IMG/VR virus record: IMGVR_UViG_3300005355_000018
Location: 1-28,559 of that record
Strand: one strand, 5' to 3'
Origin: a virus
DNA length: 28,559 nucleotides
In this document: positions 1,479-11,685 of the stretch, piece by piece
Position numbering within the stretch: the stretch's first letter is position 1
How the letters are laid out: every line of letters starts with the position of its first letter
The notes under the pieces: generated by a model
Seen by the model: the letters and a program-made list of their open reading frames with translations, nothing else
Database searches by the model: none
What the model was told of the DNA's origin: nothing
Position numbers and translations under genes: made by a program

Positions 1479-4400
1479 CTAGTAACTCTGGCGGCCGATC
1501 GCCATCGGCCGACGCTTGATCGAGCCGTAGCCGAGCGCCTGCGCCATCGGGGTTGTCGGATCGGGAAGCTCCGCAGCCGGCGCGGGCGCGGGCGGGAATA
1601 CCCCGTATTGTTCGGTGCCGGGATCGACGCCTTTTCTTCTATCCTCAAAGCGCGATCGCCCGAGGGCAATCAGCGCCGGATCGTTCAGCATTGCGTGCCA
1701 GTTGGCCGCATTGAGCGGCAACCGTCCGCTGTCGACCATGTCGATCAGGCTCGGCATAGGGTTTTGGGCTTCGCGCGTCTGCCGTTCGATCTCGCGCTCA
1801 ACGCCGCCATACCGGCCGGGATACAGCACGGCTGGGCCTTTGGGCCAGCGGTCGACATTCTTGCCTTTTCCCGGTTGCGGCTGATGAGGCACCACCGTGC
1901 CCGACTCGTCCGGTATGAAGAATTCCGGCCCTTCCTCGCCCACCACAACCGTTTCGTCCTTGTCGACGTGGCCGCCCTTGGCCAGAAATCGGGTGTCGAA
2001 CGGCAGCGCCGCCTCATTGCCGCGGAACGGAGAGAATTGTCCGGGAGTGTCTGGCGTGTAAAGCGGCGGCGGGGGTGGCTGAATTGCAGGCGTCTTACCC
2101 CAGTCATTATACGGGGTCGGCTGCGGATTAATGATCGGTGACAGATTTTGCAGGGCCGGTGTGCCACGGCCATAGTTTTCGGGCGCCGGCCCAGTCGACT
2201 GCGTCAGGTCCGCATATTGCTGTCCGAATGGCGCAGCGCCCTGCTTGCCGGGCGCGAAGGGTGACGGCGGTCCTTGCACCTCGCCGGGCTTGGCCGGCTG
2301 GTAGCCCTGCAGGGCGGCGGCAATGCCGCTATCAATGTGGCCCTTGTATATCGACCACAACACAGCGGACGGGCCATAGCCGACCTTTTCCGCCCCCTCG
2401 TAGGCGGATTTGGTCATCAGGCTGCGTGCCATATCAAGTGGAACGCCCGCCCGCGCTAGATCCTTAGCGGCCACCACGCCGGCTGCGTTAAACTCCGCTT
2501 GCCCTGATGCTGTGGTCAATTTGGCGGTGGATTGCTTGATCAGGTTTAGCGCGTTCTGTGTCTGAACCGCGCGGTCCAACTGCCCGCGCGCGGGCGGCGT
2601 TAATATCGGTGCCGGAATATCGGCCGGTGGCCGTGGCTCGGGCGCGATCGGCATGGTCGGCGACGGCAGCGCAGCCGGCGGGATATCGGCCGGCGGTCGC
2701 GGTTGCGCTACCTCCGGCTGCGGCGCATCGCTGGGCCGAGCCCGTGGCGTTGGCACGCCCGCCTGCTGATTTCCCCGTCCGGGGGCTAGCAGGCCGCGGT
2801 CAACGGCCGCCTGCCGGGTTTGCGCGTCGAGGGCCCTTTGTTCCGCCTGCTCCTGCGCGCTCGGGCGTGCGCCGGCATTGCCGCGTGCATCCGACAGTTG
2901 GATATGTGGCTCGTCAAAGGGCCTTCCACCCCTCGATCCAAGGGTTTCAAGGCCATACTCCCTAGCGTGGGCGCGTAACCAACTCAGCGCGGGACCGGGG
3001 CGAAAATCAATGGCTCGTCCAGGGCCGTGATTGGAGCCGCCAGGACGGGCCGCAGGGCCAGCGTTTCGTCCGTTTGGATTATAGCGGGTGTAGACGCTCT
3101 CCTGCGACGTGCGCGGGTCCATCGCGTGTTCATGCGCTTCACCGCGATGTGCAGGACGCCATCCGCTGGTGGCAACCAAGTTATCGCGTAGATTTGCCGG
3201 CATATCCTGCATTGCGCGGTTGATACGCTCAACCAGCCGGGCATCCACATCGCGAACATTGATGTCCTCGATGCGAAAATGCGGCTCAATACCAGCTTGC
3301 CGGGCGGTGCGAAAATCAATGCCGGGCCGCCCTTGCGGATAATCGGTGCGGCCACTGTCGCGATAATTCGAGTTAACCCGCGGATTATCCAAATGTGAAT
3401 TCGTATAGGTGCCCCTTGCCCCAGTCACCTGACCGGGGATGTTTTCGGGCGGGCGGGGCGCATTGGGGTCTTGCGGCGGCTGGCTGGTGTCCTGGGGCTC
3501 CGGCGCGTCGTCGTGTTCATCGGGCGGCTGCGCAGGCTGTGCGGGCGGGGCGGGCGGTGCCGGCTGCTGCGACGGCGCATAGGCCGGCGGCAGAGCCGTC
3601 TGCGGCATTCCCGGAAAGGACAGCGGCGCACTCGGCGTCGTCGGCGTCGGCACCATGTCGACCAAGCTGGGCGGCGTCGGCACTTGTTCGATCAGACTAG
3701 GCGATGTCGGCCGTGCCTCCTGCGGCGGCGTCTGCGGCGTTTGCTCCGCTGGTCGCGCCTCCGGTTGCTGTTCTGCGGGTCGGCCACTCTCCGGTTCTTC
3801 TGCGGGGCGGCTCTCCGGTGCCTCTACAGCGGGCGGCAGAGTAGTCGGGGGCCCCCGCGGATCAGCCGGCACACTGGGATCGTCCGACCTCACCACCTCA
3901 ACATCGATCGGGGTCTGGGTTGGCGCGACATTATACTCGAAGTTGGTTTCCCTGCCGCCGGGGATAAATGCCTCAATGCCGGGTTGAGCCTCTGTTGGCG
4001 CTGCGCCCTCGAAAACCGAACCCCAATCGGGGGCGGGCGCGGTAGTTGACGGCGCATATTCGAAACTTGTTTCTCTACCGCCCGGAATGGTTGACGTGGT
4101 GCCAGACGGAGAAGTGGCCATGTCCGGCCCACCAAGCCCAGGCTCCGAGGGGGGGCTCAGTGCATTATCAGGAATGGCCATAAGGGCATCAAGGCCCCGT
4201 GAGAACGGATACATTGTAACCCCGGCCACAGGGTCAATGATTGCGTTCATGGTAGCGTTAAATCGGTCGCCCCAAGTTGGGGCCGGCGGTCCCTGCACAT
4301 AGCCGGGATTTGGAAAATAGCCGAAATCATGCAGAAGGGTTTCTTGCGCGCTGCGCGATAGCTGGTCGCTCGGCAGCGTGCTGTAGGGCGTATCGCCCCA

Positions 4401-5801
4401 CATTTCGTTGAAGGTAAGCGATGGCTCCGCTTCCGATCTCTGATCGGCCGCCAGATCCATGCCGGACGGCGTGTCGCCGAAGGGATCAAACGCCTGATTG
4501 AAATCCCGCCCAACGGAAACGTCGGTGCTCGGCTGATACGGATTTGCGGCCCAATCGGTCGGCTCGGCGAGGCCGGTTCGCCCCGCCATCTGCTCAGCCG
4601 GGTTCCAGCCGGGCTGGATGCCGAGGTCGGCAAACACCTGATCGAAATTCGGCGCGGCGGTCTGCTGCCCCGGCCCATAGTCGAAATCTGTTCCCCTGCC
4701 CCCGGAGATATACGCATCGACGGCAGGCGATGGCGCGGAAGTGTCGAAGCCGAACCGGCTGTCGAAGCTGTCTTGCTGCTGGCCAGATTTGCCTTGCTCA
4801 CCGGCCGATTGCTGGTCGAGGCTTTGCGGTCCGAAGGCCGAAGGCTCCGCATCGGGTGTAGCGGCATCGAAGCGGCTGGCGAAACTATCCTGCTGCGCGG
4901 GCGCGACGGCGTCGAAGCGACTGGCAAAACTGTCTTGCTGTGTTGGCTCGGCCTCGGGCGGGGCTTCGGCTTCTGGCGCGGGTGCCGCACCTAGCGGGGC
5001 GGCATCAGGGTCGGTCTGTGTTCCCGTATCAGCATTGGGCTCGGCCTCGGATCCGGCCTCGGACGCCGCTTCCGCCGCCTGACCGCCCATGGAATGGCTG
5101 GACGCCGCTGCCGGCCCTGCCGCCGCATGGCCACCGGCCGAACCCGCCGTGTCGGCAAAGGCTGGCCCGCTGACCGAGCTTACCGCATTGCTGCCGCCGA
5201 GGGTGCCGGTGCCGAAGCTGCTGAAGGAGCCGCCACCACCACCGCCTCCACCGTAGAAGCCTCCACCACCGCCACCGTATGAGCCGCCGCCGTAATCACC
5301 ACCGCCGCCGGCGCTACCCCAGAAGCCGCCACCACCACCACCGCCACCACCATAGGTGTCAGCGCCGAACATCGCGCCGCCAGGCCCGCCGCCGGTGCCC
5401 GCCGCGTTGAACGTGCCGGCCGAGCCCCAGTCGCCGCCGCCCGTGGTCACGCCAGGGTTAGGCCCGGCAACGTCGCCAAAGGTCGGATTGGGGGCGTTAA
5501 AGCCGGAATAATTGGTATCGCCGAAGCTGCCCCAGTCGCCACCGCCGCCCATGCCGGTTCCGGCCGTGGAAGCATCGTAGGCCGAGCCGCCCCAGAACCC
5601 GATCCCGCCGGCATCGAAGCCCGAAGCATCATAAGAACCGGAACTGCCCCAATCGCCGCCCCCGGTAAAGCCGCCCCCGCCACTGTCACCGCTAAAGCTG
5701 CCCTCGCCGCCGCCGCCGCCGCCCTCGCTGCCCCAGCATAGCCGTAGGCTTTGCGGCAACCATTCATCCGGCTGCGCGCAATCCCACGGCTTGAAAATCA
5801 T
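1479..5801 (-). CDS. Giant mosaic virion protein with M15-type peptidase domain (1440 aa)
   Basis: Residues about 25-230 are extremely Gly-rich with repeated 'WGS-x-G' and 'YDASGFDAGG' units. Residues 230-800 are Ala/Pro/Glu/Gln-rich, with three DSF(A/D)SRF copies and three GGR-x-T-x-F-x-Y copies. Residues about 800-975 form a recognisable M15-type D,D/L,D-peptidase domain: SGWRPA, then SNHGPGRAIDF (first zinc His and Asp) and DEPHIQL (last zinc His). Near residue 1290 a 'GGHV...VVVGEEGPEFFIP' segment matches a motif common near the C-terminus of tape-measure and other phage virion proteins. The protein ends in MAIGRQSY. It is probably a virion-associated lysin that opens peptidoglycan during DNA entry. 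The ATG at 5801 overlaps the previous stop as ATGA; a GTG at 5810 is an alternative. Confidence 0.85.
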   Translation of the reverse strand: MIFKPWDCAQPDEWLPQSLRLCWGSEGGGGGGEGSFSGDSGGGGFTGGGDWGSSGSYDASGFDAGGIGFWGGSAYDASTAGTGMGGGGDWGSFGDTNYSGFNAPNPTFGDVAGPNPGVTTGGGDWGSAGTFNAAGTGGGPGGAMFGADTYGGGGGGGGGFWGSAGGGGDYGGGSYGGGGGGFYGGGGGGGGSFSSFGTGTLGGSNAVSSVSGPAFADTAGSAGGHAAAGPAAASSHSMGGQAAEAASEAGSEAEPNADTGTQTDPDAAPLGAAPAPEAEAPPEAEPTQQDSFASRFDAVAPAQQDSFASRFDAATPDAEPSAFGPQSLDQQSAGEQGKSGQQQDSFDSRFGFDTSAPSPAVDAYISGGRGTDFDYGPGQQTAAPNFDQVFADLGIQPGWNPAEQMAGRTGLAEPTDWAANPYQPSTDVSVGRDFNQAFDPFGDTPSGMDLAADQRSEAEPSLTFNEMWGDTPYSTLPSDQLSRSAQETLLHDFGYFPNPGYVQGPPAPTWGDRFNATMNAIIDPVAGVTMYPFSRGLDALMAIPDNALSPPSEPGLGGPDMATSPSGTTSTIPGGRETSFEYAPSTTAPAPDWGSVFEGAAPTEAQPGIEAFIPGGRETNFEYNVAPTQTPIDVEVVRSDDPSVPADPRGPPTTLPPAVEAPESRPAEEPESGRPAEQQPEARPAEQTPQTPPQEARPTSPSLIEQVPTPPSLVDMVPTPTTPSAPLSFPGMPQTALPPAYAPSQQPAPPAPPAQPAQPPDEHDDAPEPQDTSQPPQDPNAPRPPENIPGQVTGARGTYTNSHLDNPRVNSNYRDSGRTDYPQGRPGIDFRTARQAGIEPHFRIEDINVRDVDARLVERINRAMQDMPANLRDNLVATSGWRPAHRGEAHEHAMDPRTSQESVYTRYNPNGRNAGPAARPGGSNHGPGRAIDFRPGPALSWLRAHAREYGLETLGSRGGRPFDEPHIQLSDARGNAGARPSAQEQAEQRALDAQTRQAAVDRGLLAPGRGNQQAGVPTPRARPSDAPQPEVAQPRPPADIPPAALPSPTMPIAPEPRPPADIPAPILTPPARGQLDRAVQTQNALNLIKQSTAKLTTASGQAEFNAAGVVAAKDLARAGVPLDMARSLMTKSAYEGAEKVGYGPSAVLWSIYKGHIDSGIAAALQGYQPAKPGEVQGPPSPFAPGKQGAAPFGQQYADLTQSTGPAPENYGRGTPALQNLSPIINPQPTPYNDWGKTPAIQPPPPPLYTPDTPGQFSPFRGNEAALPFDTRFLAKGGHVDKDETVVVGEEGPEFFIPDESGTVVPHQPQPGKGKNVDRWPKGPAVLYPGRYGGVEREIERQTREAQNPMPSLIDMVDSGRLPLNAANWHAMLNDPALIALGRSRFEDRRKGVDPGTEQYGVFPPAPAPAAELPDPTTPMAQALGYGSIKRRPMAIGRQSY
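5205..5740 (-). repeat. Glycine-codon low-complexity repeats
   Basis: Imperfect tandem GGN-codon tracts (seen on the plus strand as CCACCGCC/ACCACC runs) encode the poly-glycine and WGS-G repeats of the large mosaic protein. The densest parts are about 5225-5360 and 5690-5735. Such tracts are prone to length change by slippage and to assembly error. Confidence 0.8.
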
Positions 5802-6628
5802 ACCCCGCACATCCCTTCACATTCGTTGTTGAACAGGTTGAGTTGGCCGTGATCCTCGGCGGTCGAGAGGTCAACCTCGGCGAGCGGTTTCAGCGAGCGA
5901 TGGACGAATAGCTCATTGCGCCATTTGCGCATGTGGCCGCCTTTGCGCACCAGATCGTCCACATCGCACGCCTGTTTGAAGCTCGCCGGATCGTTGGCCT
6001 TCATGTCGCGCCAGCCGGCGTCGTCGCGGAATGGGCAGAACGTGCAGGCCGATTTGCCGGGCAGCGGGTAGCCGTGGGCGGCCAGCCAATCGAGGCAGGC
6101 TTGCCGGGTCATCCGCAATTCGAGCAGGGGATGGCGGTTGGTCTGCCACGCCTGCCGCGCCGGTCGCGCCCGTATCGCCTCGTCAAGCGAAATGCCAATC
6201 CACACCTCCATTGCGCCCGCAGGGATGCGTGTACGCGGCGCATAACCCAGCAATTCGCGTTGCTTCTTGGCCAGCACGTCCACTTTGTAGTGCCGGGTGC
6301 ATTGCCGCCGGCCCATGGACGTTTCAAAGCTGACGCCGTTCTGCTTCATCCGCTTGATGAAAAACGGCGCACCAGCAAACCGGCCCTGCGAGCCGGTGGT
6401 GGTAAACCCGCGCTTGAGGTCATCCGCGATGTTGCCGGCCGAAACCGAGTGAACCGGGAACGGTAGTTGCGGGATCAGCCGCGCCAAGCTGGCGTAGACG
6501 TGCTCGGGCTCGGCGCCGGTATCTGCGAAGATGGCACAGTCCGGCATCGGGCCGATCTCGCCGTGCGCCGCCATCAGCGCCATGGTGGTCGACTGCACGC
6601 CGGCGCCGAGCGAGATCACTCTCAGCAT
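5798..6628 (-). CDS. PAPS-reductase-like PP-loop protein (276 aa)
   Basis: The N-terminus RVISLGAGVQSTT is the S-x-G-x-x-S PP-loop of the adenine-nucleotide alpha-hydrolase/PAPS-reductase superfamily, whose members bind ATP or PAPS and transfer sulfur or activate a substrate. It is followed by FADTGAEPEHVY, as in PAPS-reductase folds. Three cysteine motifs stand out: QCTRHYK (C110), CTFCPF (C195, C198) and the terminal ECEGMC (C270, C274). They could hold an Fe-S cluster or carry sulfur, as in DndC- or TtcA-like enzymes. The ATG at 6628 has GGAGGA about 9 bases upstream; a start at 6658 would lack this. It overlaps the GNAT-like gene by 7 bases and the mosaic gene by 4. The substrate (DNA, tRNA or cysteine metabolism) cannot be told from sequence. 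Confidence 0.85.
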   Translation of the reverse strand: MLRVISLGAGVQSTTMALMAAHGEIGPMPDCAIFADTGAEPEHVYASLARLIPQLPFPVHSVSAGNIADDLKRGFTTTGSQGRFAGAPFFIKRMKQNGVSFETSMGRRQCTRHYKVDVLAKKQRELLGYAPRTRIPAGAMEVWIGISLDEAIRARPARQAWQTNRHPLLELRMTRQACLDWLAAHGYPLPGKSACTFCPFRDDAGWRDMKANDPASFKQACDVDDLVRKGGHMRKWRNELFVHRSLKPLAEVDLSTAEDHGQLNLFNNECEGMCGV

Positions 6629-6981
6629 GTCAGGATCTTCCTCCGTCGCGTGCCGCAACTCTGCCAGCCGGGCATGGCCTTGAGCCAGCCATCACGGCCC
6701 CAGCCAATCATCCAATCGCAGCCCTGCGCTCGGGCGTATTTTTCGATCACGGGATACATCGCCTTGAGCTCTTCGAGCTCGCCGCCTTGGAGCCAGACAC
6801 TGCAGCAGCGGATGCCGATCGGATAGGTCATCATCGTGGTCAGGATGACGGCGTTCTCGCCCGGCCACAGCACCGCGCCATGGCGGATCGCGTCCCTGAT
6901 CTGGTCCTTGGTGTGGGTGGCGCCGAATTCGTTCAGCGAGGCCTCAAGCCAAGGCCAGCACCGCTCGAATTCGTCGGTCAT
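6622..6981 (-). CDS. GNAT-like phage protein, copy 1 (119 aa)
   Basis: The core 'GGELEELKAMYPVIEKYARAQGCDWMIGWGRDGWLKAMPGW' region (residues about 70-105) matches the layout of short phage proteins with a GNAT-like fold: a helix of E-x-Y-A-x-x-x-G-C, a strand, then G-R-x-G-W-x-x-x-x-P-G-W/Y. They often sit near structural genes. The upstream strands VLWPGENAVILTT correspond to the acetyl-CoA-facing sheet of GNATs, but no acyl-CoA loop is obvious and activity is uncertain. The ATG at 6981 overlaps the stop of the 56-residue gene as ATGA, which decides the start over a TTG at 6993. A second copy lies at 23366-23782 in the late operon. Confidence 0.75.
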   Translation of the reverse strand: MTDEFERCWPWLEASLNEFGATHTKDQIRDAIRHGAVLWPGENAVILTTMMTYPIGIRCCSVWLQGGELEELKAMYPVIEKYARAQGCDWMIGWGRDGWLKAMPGWQSCGTRRRKILTC

Positions 6982-7148: not shown

Positions 7149-7516
7149 CACTCACCGCCATACGACTGCCGGCCGATCGCCATCAGGCCGGGAGGCCCAA
7201 CCGCGGGCGCGATCGCCGCAACCTTCTTGCCGCCCTGGAAGCCTTCCTTCTCGCCCTCGCGGAACGGATTATCCTGCCGCAGGTACAGATCGCTGAACCC
7301 GAACGGCGAGATATCGCCCTCGACCACGTCGCAGCTGTGGCTCTTGCTGTCGAAGTGGCCGCACAGGCCGCAACTGCGCTGCGGGTTGCCCTCGCGGTAG
7401 TTGGCGGCCTCCTGCGATTGCTTCTTGCCCTCGCCGGGCTCGCTGGCTTCTTCCTGCGGAGGCTGCGGCCCTTCGGTCGTTTCGTCGTCGGGCATAGTCG
7501 AATAGGTGTCAGTCAT
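7148..7516 (-). CDS. Cys-motif phage protein ending in MAIGRQSYGGE (122 aa)
   Basis: The N-terminal half is acidic, Pro/Glu/Gln-rich and probably disordered (MPDDETTEGPQPPQEE). Residues around 50-80 carry C-x-x-C-x-x-F-x-x-x-x-x-x-C (CGLCGHFDSKSHSC) followed by V-E-G-D-I-S-P-F-G. This arrangement is seen in small phage metal- or Fe-S-binding proteins of the 'C-x-x-C-x-x-F' type. The C-terminal eight residues before GGE are identical to those ending the 1440-residue protein. The ATG at 7516 overlaps the preceding TGA as ATGA, so it is preferred over a start at 7552. Its role is unknown; it may accompany the virion mosaic protein. Confidence 0.75.
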   Translation of the reverse strand: MTDTYSTMPDDETTEGPQPPQEEASEPGEGKKQSQEAANYREGNPQRSCGLCGHFDSKSHSCDVVEGDISPFGFSDLYLRQDNPFREGEKEGFQGGKKVAAIAPAVGPPGLMAIGRQSYGGE

Positions 7517-7836
7517 TTGTACCCCCCACCCATGCCACCGAGCCAGCCCCACGGGTTGCTGCCGGGAGGGGTCGGCCGCGGCGTGCCGCTGTAGGTCGGC
7601 TGGCCGCCGAGCATCAGCATCTGCAACAGGCTCGGCTGCGGTTTCTTCTTGGGCGCGTTGGGGTCGTCGGGATTGGCCGGATCATCCTGGGGCGCCTCCC
7701 CCATTTTCCGCGGCAACGGCTGTTCCCACCATTGCTTCGGCTTGGGCGCGTTGCGGGCGAACGGATCACCCTGCGGCGGGCCCATCATGCCGACGCCCAT
7801 CTGGGCCATCTGCAACATGCGCGGATCGTAGGGCAT
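7513..7836 (-). CDS. Hypothetical Met/Pro-rich protein, first gene of left operon (107 aa)
   Basis: I recognise no family. The protein opens with MPYDPRMLQMAQMGVGMMG, is rich in Pro, Lys and Asp through the middle (NPDDPNAPKKKPQP), and ends with a Gly/Trp-rich tail (WGWLGGMGGGYK). AGGAGG lies five bases before the ATG at 7836; a GTG directly before it is less well spaced. Low complexity and its place at the head of the operon that also makes the mosaic protein suggest a disordered structural accessory, but nothing shows a function. Confidence 0.7.
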   Translation of the reverse strand: MPYDPRMLQMAQMGVGMMGPPQGDPFARNAPKPKQWWEQPLPRKMGEAPQDDPANPDDPNAPKKKPQPSLLQMLMLGGQPTYSGTPRPTPPGSNPWGWLGGMGGGYK

Positions 7837-7873
7837 CACCGCCTCCTACATCGCTTCATCATCATGACCTATC

Positions 7874-7928: not shown

Positions 7929-7946
7929 TCAATTAACATTAATTGA
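7929..7946. promoter_or_regulatory. AT-rich operator-like palindrome
   Basis: TCAATTAA and TTAATTGA form perfect eight-base arms around CA. The right arm overlaps the TTGACA -35 element of the plus-strand promoter, so a protein bound here should block transcription of the PEP-CTERM-type gene. The sequence is AT-rich in an otherwise GC-rich setting. Confidence 0.5.
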
Positions 7947-7971
7947 CACCTGTTCCACAGCGTGTTGTCAT
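7943..7971 (+). promoter_or_regulatory. Sigma-70-type promoter for PEP-CTERM-type gene
   Basis: A consensus TTGACA (7943-7948) is followed after 17 bases by TGTCAT (7966-7971, four of six matches to TATAAT). The gene starts 35 bases further on with GAGGA six bases before the ATG. It is one of the clearest promoters in the window. Confidence 0.6.
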
Positions 7972-8006
7972 TTGCGGGCGGCAAATCACCCCCCCGAGGA
8001 TATCAC

Positions 8007-8747
8007 ATGAACAGACTACTACTCGCAGCCGTCCTGCTGGCGGGAACGGCCCTAGTTGCACCAGCCAGCGCAGCTACGCTCACGGTTCAAGCACTGGCAG
8101 ACGATCAGGTGGTGCCGCAGTCGGCATCCGCACCCTGCATCATCTGCGCCACGACGCAGGCCCATAATCCCGTGGGTTTTGGCTACAATAATTTTAACAG
8201 CACAGGCAACGACGCTTCGTTTAACCTGTTCTCATCCAACATCACCGGAGCCTTTGGCAACGATGATGCCACGACCGTCACGGCCTACAGCGGCACTCAG
8301 CTTGTCAACTTCCTGACAGGAGTAGGCGATCTCAACATGACCTTCGGCGTGGCGATCGATGTCAACTCGACCTCGGCGAAGTCTGAAGTTCTCACCCAGT
8401 TCCGGCTGATCGATCTTGATCAAGCGGGCGACGGGCCGCTCGGCTCCCTTGTCCTGTTTGCTCTGGCCAATCCAGCGCCTTTGCCGGACATCCGCAACGG
8501 CAACGGCTCGGCTGACTACCTGATCACCGGCTTTAACCTGTCCGGCCTCGCCAACCTCGGCGATCGCCTGCTGTTCCAAGCTACGTGGTCCGGTGCAGTG
8601 GACGGCGGCGAGTCGTTCTATATCGTCCCGATCCTGACGGCGGTGCCAATCCCGGCTGCGCTTCCGATGTTTGCGGCCGGTCTTGCCGGCCTCGGCCTGC
8701 TGGCGGCTCGGCGCAAGAAGAAGACACTCGACGTAGCAGCGGCATAA
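8007..8747 (+). CDS. VPLPA/PEP-CTERM-type secreted surface protein (246 aa)
   Basis: Residues 1-23 are a classic Sec signal peptide (MNRLLLAAVLLAGTAL, cleavage after APASA). The body is Asn/Thr/Gly-rich, with PCIICATTQAHNPVGFGYNN near residues 35-55. The last 34 residues hold VPIPAALP, a hydrophobic helix and RRKKK: the three-part VPLPA/PEP-CTERM sorting signal that exosortases recognise to anchor exported proteins in Gram-negative bacteria. GAGGA precedes the ATG at 8007; an earlier ATG at 7962 lacks one and would spoil the signal peptide. The gene stands alone on the plus strand between minus-strand operons, with its own promoter and 3' hairpins, like a lysogenic-conversion (moron) gene. 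It would depend on a host exosortase. I infer an effect on the host surface, such as exclusion of other phages. Confidence 0.9.
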   Translation: MNRLLLAAVLLAGTALVAPASAATLTVQALADDQVVPQSASAPCIICATTQAHNPVGFGYNNFNSTGNDASFNLFSSNITGAFGNDDATTVTAYSGTQLVNFLTGVGDLNMTFGVAIDVNSTSAKSEVLTQFRLIDLDQAGDGPLGSLVLFALANPAPLPDIRNGNGSADYLITGFNLSGLANLGDRLLFQATWSGAVDGGESFYIVPILTAVPIPAALPMFAAGLAGLGLLAARRKKKTLDVAAA

Positions 8748-8757
8748 CCAACACGGT

Positions 8758-8825
8758 CGCCGGGTTCTCCAGAAACCGGCGGTCGCTAGCGGCCCGGCGC
8801 TTGCCGCAAGTTGGCGCCGGGCCGC
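8758..8825 (+). terminator. Tandem strong hairpins after PEP-CTERM-type gene
   Basis: Two stems follow the stop codon. The first (8758-8781) pairs CGCCGG with CCGGCG. The second (8789-8825) has perfect 12-base GC-rich arms around a 13-base loop. Neither has a long T tract, so they may terminate weakly, depend on Rho, or protect the mRNA 3' end. They isolate this gene's transcript from its neighbours. Confidence 0.5.
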
Positions 8826-8844
8826 GCCTATTTGCGGGGGCGCC

Positions 8845-8949
8845 ATGAGCGGCGATGTCGTCGTGCTGATCACCGCGCTAGGCGTGCTGTTCATTGCCCT
8901 GGTTGCCGCCTGCGCCGTTGCCTACGGGTTCTGGCGCGACGGCCTGTGA
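8845..8949 (+). CDS. Tiny single-span membrane protein (34 aa)
   Basis: The ATG at 8845 opens a 34-codon frame of the form MSGDVVVLITALGVLFIALV, one long hydrophobic helix, ending in WRDGL. A G-rich stretch (GCGGGGGC) precedes it. Its 3' end overlaps the end of the minus-strand zinc-ribbon gene by 72 bases, tail to tail. It resembles the other mini membrane proteins in this window (16955-17059, 11575-11685). It is short, so chance remains possible. Confidence 0.4.
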   Translation: MSGDVVVLITALGVLFIALVAACAVAYGFWRDGL

Positions 8950-9441
8950 GCAGGCTGGGCACCGATCGGTGCCGGCAATGCTGGTCCAGCCGTGCTGGTG
9001 CGCCAGCGCCCGGATTGCCGCCACTTGTACCGGCCGGTTGCGGTTATAGTTCATCGTGCCCCAGAACCGCGCCCGCTCGCACACATCGCAGGTTAGTTGC
9101 AGCGTGCCCTCAGCGGCGGGCTCCGGTGTGTGCGGGTGCCAGGCAGGCCCCGGCTTCGGCCCCGGCTTGCGCCGCGGCGGCTTGGGCTTCTCCGCAATTG
9201 CCGCCGCGCTGCGAGCGATCGGCCGCCGGTAAGCCTCCGGCACCCACTCGTAGCCGCGGAACCCCTGCGGCATCACCGCCGTCAGCGCACTGCGGATGTC
9301 CCATCCATCGGGATGCAGCCCCATCTTGCCGGTGACAACCCCCCGGCAAAACTCGGCATCAGCCATGGCGTCGGGCGCGTCGAAGTCCTCGTCTAGGCAG
9401 TTGTGGACCGAAAAGAACGTGTAGACGTTGTGCGAAGCCAT
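8878..9441 (-). CDS. Zinc-ribbon-like hypothetical protein (187 aa)
   Basis: I do not recognise the N-terminal half (MASHNVYTFFSVHNCLDEDF), which looks globular. A basic Pro/Lys linker (KPKPPRRKPGPKPG) at about residues 85-98 leads to a C-terminal domain with C-D-V-C, then about 40 residues later C-P-A-C, as in zinc ribbons of DNA- or RNA-binding proteins. No ribosome-binding sequence precedes the ATG at 9441. Instead an extended -10 lies six bases upstream, which suggests a leaderless mRNA. Two degenerate copies of the recurrent GTCAC/GTGAC operator sit just upstream, so the gene is probably under phage control. Confidence 0.7.
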   Translation of the reverse strand: MASHNVYTFFSVHNCLDEDFDAPDAMADAEFCRGVVTGKMGLHPDGWDIRSALTAVMPQGFRGYEWVPEAYRRPIARSAAAIAEKPKPPRRKPGPKPGPAWHPHTPEPAAEGTLQLTCDVCERARFWGTMNYNRNRPVQVAAIRALAHQHGWTSIAGTDRCPACSQAVAPEPVGNGAGGNQGNEQHA

Positions 9442-10655: not shown

Positions 10656-10865
10656 TTAGGCTAAGTCAATTCTCAACTCCACGCCGATCGCCTGGCATAG
10701 ATCGTAAACCGCAACCAACGGCGGCGAGTAGCGGCCGCGCTCCCAGTTGCCGATCGCAGTGCGGTGATAGCCGACCGCCTGCTGCAGATCACTCAGGCGA
10801 ATGCCGCGGCGCCGCCGCTCCTTCCGCAATTCATGCATCAGCTTGGCCGGGGTCAAAACGCCCAT
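10656..10865 (-). CDS. XRE-family helix-turn-helix regulator (69 aa)
   Basis: Nearly the whole protein is one XRE/Cro-type domain: LMHELRKERRRRGIRLSDLQ, then AVGYHRTAIGNWERGRYSPP (the turn and recognition helix with the W-E-R-G-x-x-x-P signature) and a last helix VAVYDLCQAIGVELRI. Such proteins bind short palindromes as dimers. The ATG at 10865 overlaps the dpdA end by 13 bases; a TTG overlapping the dpdA stop is a possible alternative. Its place inside the dpdA operon makes autoregulation through the palindrome at 12781-12800 a reasonable guess, but the HTH protein at 14043-14333 is another candidate for that site. Confidence 0.85.
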   Translation of the reverse strand: MGVLTPAKLMHELRKERRRRGIRLSDLQQAVGYHRTAIGNWERGRYSPPLVAVYDLCQAIGVELRIDLA

Positions 10866-11575
10866 CCATGCTGGTAGGGCATCACCTCGACCCGCCTGGC
10901 GTAGGCCGCGGCCTCGCGCCAATCGTGGGCGTCACGCCCCTCGTATCGGGCTGCGAAACTCCAGGCCATGCTGTCGGCCGAATACAGGCAATCGCGCACC
11001 ACACCGCTGCCGAGCGCCGTGATCTTGATCCCAAACCCATGCAGCCGCAGATCAGGCCGCTTGCGCTTGATGGCCGACAAAATCGCCTCGATCGTCCGCA
11101 TATCGACGTTGCGCTTGCACACCGAACCTACGCCGACCAACATGCCATCGCGCAGCCGGTCGCCGTACTGGTCGAGGTGGTCCAAGTAGGATTGCAGGGA
11201 ATAGCCCTGCAGCACCGGCATCAGGGTGACGGTCACCAGCGGCAGTAGCGCATCATACCGCTCGATGGTGCGGCGCTGGTGCTCGGCCACGTCGAGGCCG
11301 GTCTTCGCCAGCATGAACGGCTCGCACATCCAATCTTGCGACACCGCTACGCGCAGACCGGGATTGATCCGCGCCAGCCGGTTCACCTCGGCGGCGTAGG
11401 CGGCCGGCTCATGGCGGTAGCCGCCGTACTGCTCGATCTCCCGAAAGGCGCCGCTATCGAGGATCCAATCATCCGATGGCACCGGCTTTTTGCGGCCGCG
11501 CACGGTGTTAATGCTGATGAATGCCCGGTCGAGGTGGGCGGCGTGATGGGCGTGATCGAGCCCGACGTAGAACAT
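10853..11575 (-). CDS. dpdA: DpdA-like DNA deazaguanine transglycosylase (240 aa)
   Basis: DpdA enzymes are tRNA-guanine-transglycosylase relatives that swap guanine in DNA for a 7-deazaguanine such as preQ0, shielding DNA from restriction. Phage-type DpdA features are all present: an N-terminal FYVGL strand, ILDSGAF (D40), VAVSQDWMCEP (D81), MPVLQGY, GVGSVCKRN, LRLHGFGIK and ADSMAWSF near the end. The Asp residues match the nucleophile and general-base positions of the TGT barrel. The length is normal for short phage DpdA. The ATG at 11575 overlaps the 36-residue gene as TGATG; longer starts lack homology. No queuosine or archaeosine precursor genes are visible here, so the base must come from the host or from genes outside the window. 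Confidence 0.9.
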   Translation of the reverse strand: MFYVGLDHAHHAAHLDRAFISINTVRGRKKPVPSDDWILDSGAFREIEQYGGYRHEPAAYAAEVNRLARINPGLRVAVSQDWMCEPFMLAKTGLDVAEHQRRTIERYDALLPLVTVTLMPVLQGYSLQSYLDHLDQYGDRLRDGMLVGVGSVCKRNVDMRTIEAILSAIKRKRPDLRLHGFGIKITALGSGVVRDCLYSADSMAWSFAARYEGRDAHDWREAAAYARRVEVMPYQHGWAF

Positions 11576-11685
11576 CACCGGATCACCAGCCCGACGTGCA
11601 GAACGTAGGCCACATAGCTGACGACAACGACCGCATCGAGCCACAGCCCGATGACGATCCAATCGATGCGAGGCTTATCGGACAT
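11575..11685 (-). CDS. Mini membrane protein upstream of dpdA (36 aa)
   Basis: MSDKPRIDWIVIGLWLDAVV leads into a continuous hydrophobic stretch (VVSYVAYVL) with a short end HVGLVIR: one membrane span. The stop overlaps the dpdA ATG as TGATG, and the start overlaps the end of the previous gene by 11 bases. This tight fit supports a real gene that couples translation to dpdA, although no ribosome site is seen. Confidence 0.5.
   Translation of the reverse strand: MSDKPRIDWIVIGLWLDAVVVVSYVAYVLHVGLVIR

Follow-up and report, generated by a model that had tools for sequence, protein, structure and literature searches.

Phage-borne PEP-CTERM-type surface proteins with exchangeable sorting tags in soil viruses

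The window, i.e. the whole stretch of DNA analysed here, is an entire virus record of 28,559 bases. Among its genes is one for a 246-residue protein whose two ends resemble those of bacterial proteins sorted by exosortase. The earlier note, made from the sequence alone, had placed this gene on the strand opposite to the operons on its left; its neighbours lie on the other strand on both sides. We wondered what a protein with a bacterial sorting tag might do for a phage that encodes no sorting enzyme. The locus is composed of the following features:

7513 to 7839, minus strand: phage gene of 108 aa, left flank of the slot, kept in related phages
7929 to 7946, no strand assigned: 18-base palindrome TCAATTAA-CA-TTAATTGA, possible operator, overlapping TTGACA
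7943 to 7948: TTGACA, possible -35 element, overlapping the palindrome
8007 to 8747, plus strand: coding sequence (246 aa, ATG at 8007, stop at 8747) of the phage-borne PEP-CTERM-type surface protein
8007 to 8072, plus strand: putative signal peptide, residues 1-22 (MNRLLLAAVLLAGTALVAPASA), with hydrophobic core and ASA/A site read from the sequence
8073 to 8627, plus strand: ectodomain, residues 23-207, predicted beta-sandwich (alignments, AlphaFold)
8643 to 8723, plus strand: putative C-terminal sorting signal VPIPA, hydrophobic helix, RRKKK (TIGR03370 match; exchanged as a unit among relatives)
8758 to 8845, plus strand: overlapping G+C-rich inverted repeats after the stop codon, with no T-run
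8878 to 9441, minus strand: phage gene of 187 aa, right flank of the slot, bordering it in related phages too

A ribosome-binding-site-like sequence, GAGGA, precedes ATG 8007. The N-terminus of the product, MNRLLLAAVLLAGTALVAPASA followed by A, has the look of a Sec signal peptide by eye and by hydropathy, and relatives described below likewise have a hydrophobic N-terminus; the C-terminus reads VPIPAALPMFAAGLAGLGLLAARRKKK. The earlier description of a 246-residue product with a Sec-type signal peptide and a three-part C-terminus agrees with the sequence, in that the open reading frame is present and the TIGR03370 match spans the full model. From these signals we infer that the protein is exported by Sec and exposed at the cell surface.

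Pfam and PHROG searches with the window protein gave no match. Alignments reveal conserved ectodomain motifs (PCIIC, DVN, NGNG-DYL and DGGESFY), and dN/dS values of 0.03-0.18 indicate that the ectodomain is under purifying selection. AlphaFold, supplied with a 49-row alignment, predicted a beta-sandwich and a C-terminal helix (mean pLDDT 78.6). Foldseek returned no significant match in PDB and BFVD. The best VIA-align hit, a domain of an Akkermansia enzyme, has a Z of 7.1, a value at which folds are rated as unrelated; a Z under 8 may reflect just a common fold. Carbohydrate-binding and jelly-roll folds were matched weakly, and we did not take this as functional proof.

The CTERM models proposed in the earlier note for checking the tail do match, in the window below their cut-offs. 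TIGR03370 (VPLPA-CTERM) aligns with the window tail at 25 of 25 positions (E 4.2e-5), with a score of 23.5 bits that narrowly misses the curated cut-off (25.35 bits), while TIGR02595 (PEP-CTERM) reaches 8.3 bits against a cut-off of 16. The latter cut-off is passed by two relatives, L020 (25.0 bits) and L025 (17.9 bits). The flocculation-protein model NF033554 (floc_PepA) gave 6.7 bits for the window and 27.8 bits for L020, both below its cut-off of 80. The architecture of the signal is complete in the window: the motif is followed by a hydrophobic helix and then by an Arg/Lys cluster at the C-terminus. Of 80 related records whose 3' end is intact, a count that takes in the window, 79 have the same three-part tail, and P-x-P or PEP occupies a fixed place ahead of the helix, again in 79 of 80. 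Together with the low dN/dS of the ectodomain, this recurrence goes beyond chance. The exception to the three-part rule, L073 (tail APEPITLGLLGISILGLAAARRIL), fails solely on the number of basic residues. By curated cut-offs the window protein thus lies outside TIGR03370 and TIGR02595; judged from its sequence, it nevertheless appears to work like a member.

Tails of 49 representatives were sorted into three classes: PLPA-like (22), canonical PEP (17) and VPGPIVGAGLPG-like (10). In the last class (L010, L017, L019, L021, L027, L029, L030, L035, L037 and L069), VPGPIVGAGLPG is followed by a hydrophobic stretch and RRR. No NCBIfam sorting model matched the four members scanned singly (L010, L017, L019 and L021), and the exact VPGPI-tail pattern occurs in 0 of 385 genomes of one bacterial class, although so narrow a pattern makes its absence say little. 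Since neither model nor pattern recovers it, the VPGPIVGAGLPG class is a sorting signal by architecture only. It may represent an undescribed class of sorting signal.

Are such proteins peculiar to this virus? IMG/VR search with the window protein retrieved 24 viral contigs, and a subsequent profile search 92 relatives, the best 80 of which were retained (36-100% identity). The database check suggested earlier thus uncovered a large IMG/VR family, while the window protein and two diverse members found no relative among 50,697 phage records. Equally, one diverse member found none in 72,556 plasmid records, and two tail peptides alone, short and possibly masked as queries, found nothing in plasmids. 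Across its 12,687 bases, record L002 does not differ from the window (100% identity), and it was excluded from independent counts. Genes neighbouring family members encode terminase large subunits of at least three families (PHROGs 9, 38 and 2), portal and capsid proteins, DNA polymerase, exonuclease, Erf, endolysin and integrase. Because the adjoining terminase large subunits belong to different PHROGs, the family gene resides in unrelated phages.

The other genes of the window are also phage-like: virion proteins, a DNA ejection protein, an Erf-like annealing protein, a RecE-like exonuclease and an endolysin. The closest annotated phages to one of the virion proteins (25-34% identity) infect Microcystis, Rhizobium, Pelagibacter, Bradyrhizobium and others. 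A PAPS reductase-like protein is encoded at 5798-6658 (minus strand), with 31-48% identity among the matches listed, from Pelagibacter, Synechococcus, Salisaeta and Mycobacterium phages. The product of the gene at 10853-11662 (minus strand) may resemble DpdA-like 7-deazaguanine DNA-modification enzymes. A 1443-aa protein rich in Gly, Pro and Ala (1479-5810, minus strand) has no PHROG match and contains SNHGPGRAIDF and DEPHIQL, motifs that presumably recall M15-type peptidases.

No exosortase (PF09721) was found in 56 phage records (25 + 31), the window record included; its absence from the window was correctly predicted from the sequence. Tyrosine integrase is present in 11 of 48 carrier records and missing from 37, and none lies in the window; serine recombinase was found in none of 28 carrier records; all these records may be fragments. 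Lysogenic conversion, suggested earlier, is therefore not borne out as the general setting. With tyrosine integrase missing from 37 of 48 carriers and serine recombinase from all 28, a role in lytic infection is no less probable, within the limits set by fragmentary records.

Further, we examined the position of the gene. Both window flanks and the slot between them recur in five other contigs (L003, L004, L005, L018 and L022) at 75-97% DNA identity. In L135 both flanks are present with no family member between them, and in L133 and L134 the slot is filled by a deep-branching family member with a VPAPAIGAGIPG tail. The gene is accessory in its slot, a new finding: the slot is empty or differently occupied in related phages. 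The earlier proposal of a phage-borne, PEP-CTERM-type (VPLPA-like) surface-protein moron is upheld by this variable slot and by the recurrent three-part tails. That host DNA or a chimeric contig accounts for the region at 7.8-8.8 kb is ruled out, with hardly any probability left to it, because the same phage flanks recur in independent contigs; moreover, the family is present in about 80 viral records.

Other reading frames were noticed around the slot. A 34-codon ORF (MSGDVVVLITALGVLFIALVAACAVAYGFWRDGL; 8845-8949, plus strand) lies 3' of the surface-protein gene and overlaps the 3' end of the 8878-9441 gene; at this place the start of a similar ORF is found in L004 and L005, and a different start in L003, L018 and L022. 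A second secreted-looking protein, with the motif RTKVE[IV]RGPCYSACT, is encoded in or beside the slot in L134 (5912-6544) and L135 (4792-5568). It fills the slot in L135, where the PEP-CTERM-type gene is absent.

The earlier note had also assigned the gene its own promoter and tandem hairpins after the stop codon. Both claims hold in part. TTGACA and the palindrome are present. Five related phages have kept TTGACA as the window has, whereas the perfect palindrome is not conserved; TTAATTGACA is likewise kept by five phages of the window's lineage, the left arm being degenerate. No consensus -10 was found. A dedicated promoter is plausible from these elements. Inverted repeats do follow the stop codon, and five relatives show good conservation of this DNA. 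Lacking a T-run, the repeats do not qualify as classical terminators, and no intrinsic terminator was scored after the stop.

We also compared the evolution of individual protein parts. At least 12 changes of tail class must be placed on the ectodomain tree, the minimum possible being 2, and well-supported branches alone force 6-7 changes per tail class. L003 and L010 share 96% of the ectodomain and 35% of the tail. L009 and L012 are about 93% identical in DNA across most of 11 kb and have identical ectodomain proteins (residues 36-207), whereas the last ~80 bases of the gene are just 60-65% identical; identity returns to 97% beyond the gene. These comparisons indicate a new finding, namely that the sorting tag is exchanged independently of the ectodomain. 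The converse is seen in the window and L018, where identity is 95% in the signal peptide and 97% in the tail but 64% in the ectodomain, and in L006 and L023, whose DNA stays 98% identical until roughly codon 25, where the signal peptide ends, and diverges from there. By the same kind of alignment evidence, and likewise newly, ectodomains are exchanged between constant signal peptide and tail. Tail identity tracks shared neighbouring genes when ectodomain identity is allowed for (partial r 0.26, 0 of 2000 permutations), and tracks the ectodomain more weakly (0.15, 12 of 2000 permutations). Such adherence of the tag to the phage backbone is expected if the tag has to suit whichever exosortase the present host provides.

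We wondered if related proteins also occur in bacterial chromosomes. A first scan of genome contigs gave no relative; when it was repeated with an alignment as query, a single weak match to a tail appeared (L026). One bacterial class (385 genomes) and one order (300 genomes) were then sampled. Distant relatives of full or near-full length, again a new finding, were found in four genomes (L114 in G458, L115 in G552, L116 in G617 and L117 in G845). Each of these four proteins has a PEP-CTERM-type tail at its C-terminus and is surrounded by genes that look chromosomal rather than phage-like, as judged by reading and not by family scan. A phage ectodomain profile stripped of the tail detects them with E of 1e-7 to 1e-11 (search space one million) and detects nothing in 800 shuffled sequences; comparison of phage ectodomain and chromosomal homologues by hhalign gave 99.4%. 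As the chromosomal copies are PEP-CTERM proteins, capture probably proceeded from host to phage.

Exosortase is encoded in three of these four genomes, with none in the fourth assembly. Within the class sample, exosortase (PF09721) is present in 52 of 385 genomes: 21 of the 27 matched by the family profile and 31 of the 358 others (Fisher p 1.5e-15). This co-occurrence ties the tag to exosortases. The matches in the 27 genomes are mostly to the tail only, so the enrichment supports the tag and not a role of the ectodomain. The PEP-CTERM system was itself first recognised through the same co-occurrence (PMC1569441).

The explanation that we favour, and consider fairly probable as a whole, is that of a captured accessory phage surface protein that would be routed by the host exosortase and would change adsorption to the infected cell. 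A chromosomal PEP-CTERM family would have been taken up by phages, spread among unrelated phages of soil bacteria and evolved as three exchangeable modules, i.e. signal peptide, ectodomain and sorting tag. Sec would export the protein and the C-terminal tag would pass it to the exosortase of the host, since the phage has none of its own; we infer such processing to be highly probable. Once displayed, the predicted beta-sandwich may mask a receptor, imitate one or attach to surface polysaccharide; altered adsorption is the most likely role. The outcome would be superinfection exclusion, with progeny spared from binding to debris, in the manner of T5 Llp by another sorting route. We put forward the exclusion role itself tentatively, as somewhat doubtful. 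Whether the family at large comprises exosortase clients of lytic and temperate soil phages is a more balanced matter, which we hold to be about evenly poised: a captured host PEP-CTERM protein would be displayed by host exosortase, tag swaps would refit it to new hosts and ectodomains would be swapped separately, giving a modular system of surface modification and superinfection exclusion.

The main rival to the adsorption role is an effect on matrix or floc. The protein, equally displayed by exosortase, would tune the host matrix (exopolysaccharide, aggregation, floc), and so affect how the phage spreads through biofilm and not its access to the receptor. PEP-CTERM proteins are linked to exopolysaccharide (PMC1569441), and one PEP-CTERM gene is linked to floc formation (PMC9850573). 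The partial NF033554 match, weak as it is, has its best stretch over much of the ectodomain in several members, and the weak CBM-like fold matches (best Z 7.1) point in the same direction. However, the NF033554 scores are far under the 80-bit cut-off, and fold matches of this Z may be mere common fold; we regard this effect as possible and rather unlikely.

Readings that dispense with the exosortase fare worse. Generic stop-transfer anchors have the same make-up, with arginines after a hydrophobic helix, and phages do make periplasmic exclusion proteins such as T4 Spackle. The tail might accordingly hold the protein in the inner membrane facing the periplasm, where it would block DNA entry and escape exosortase processing. 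This is improbable, as it leaves unexplained the fixed P-x-P or PEP ahead of the helix, the HMM sorting-domain matches and the concentration of family-profile matches in exosortase genomes. Still less credible, and rejected here, is a virion or lysis protein: the gene often lies near endolysin, terminase and structural genes, on the same strand in some backbones, but it has no PHROG match, encodes a putative signal peptide and the tail, is accessory in its slot and has chromosomal homologues that are themselves PEP-CTERM proteins.

The favoured reading, a host-sorted surface protein, can be compared with known systems. The lambda genes lom and bor are phage morons for surface proteins. Like them, the window gene is accessory, occupies a variable slot between phage operons and has a predicted envelope product; unlike them, it follows another sorting route, and many carriers show no integrase, so that prophage expression cannot be assumed. 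T5 Llp is a small superinfection-exclusion lipoprotein, sorted to the envelope by the host, that blocks the receptor (PMC9586334). The window protein is likewise phage-encoded and predicted to reach the envelope by a host route, but it carries a C-terminal exosortase-type tag and a larger, predicted beta-sandwich. With substrates of the PEP-CTERM and VPLPA-CTERM type (TIGR02595, TIGR03370; Haft et al. 2006, PMC1569441) it shares a signal peptide, putative in the window protein, an ectodomain of little known homology, the tag of P-x-P, hydrophobic helix and Arg-rich end, and the enrichment of exosortase in genomes matched by the family profile. In contrast to these substrates, it is encoded by phages without exosortase, tag classes are swapped between phage copies, the window score is just below the TIGR03370 cut-off and the VPGPIVGAGLPG class has no NCBIfam model. 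Flocculation protein PepA (NF033554) is also a PEP-CTERM protein and its partial match reaches the ectodomain in several members; with at most 27.8 bits among the members listed, the window protein is not a member. We found no description of a phage-encoded exosortase substrate in the open-access papers searched.

Taken together, many unrelated soil viruses of bacteria carry a gene for a predicted secreted protein with an exchangeable sorting tag and encode no sorting enzyme, which suggests that they use host exosortase for surface remodelling. If true, exosortase sorting would be a further host route exploited by phages for changing the cell surface. Natural tag swaps in near-identical phages, such as L009 and L012, would then be ready tools for reading exosortase specificity, which is poorly known, and the type of tag could help host prediction for uncultivated soil phages.
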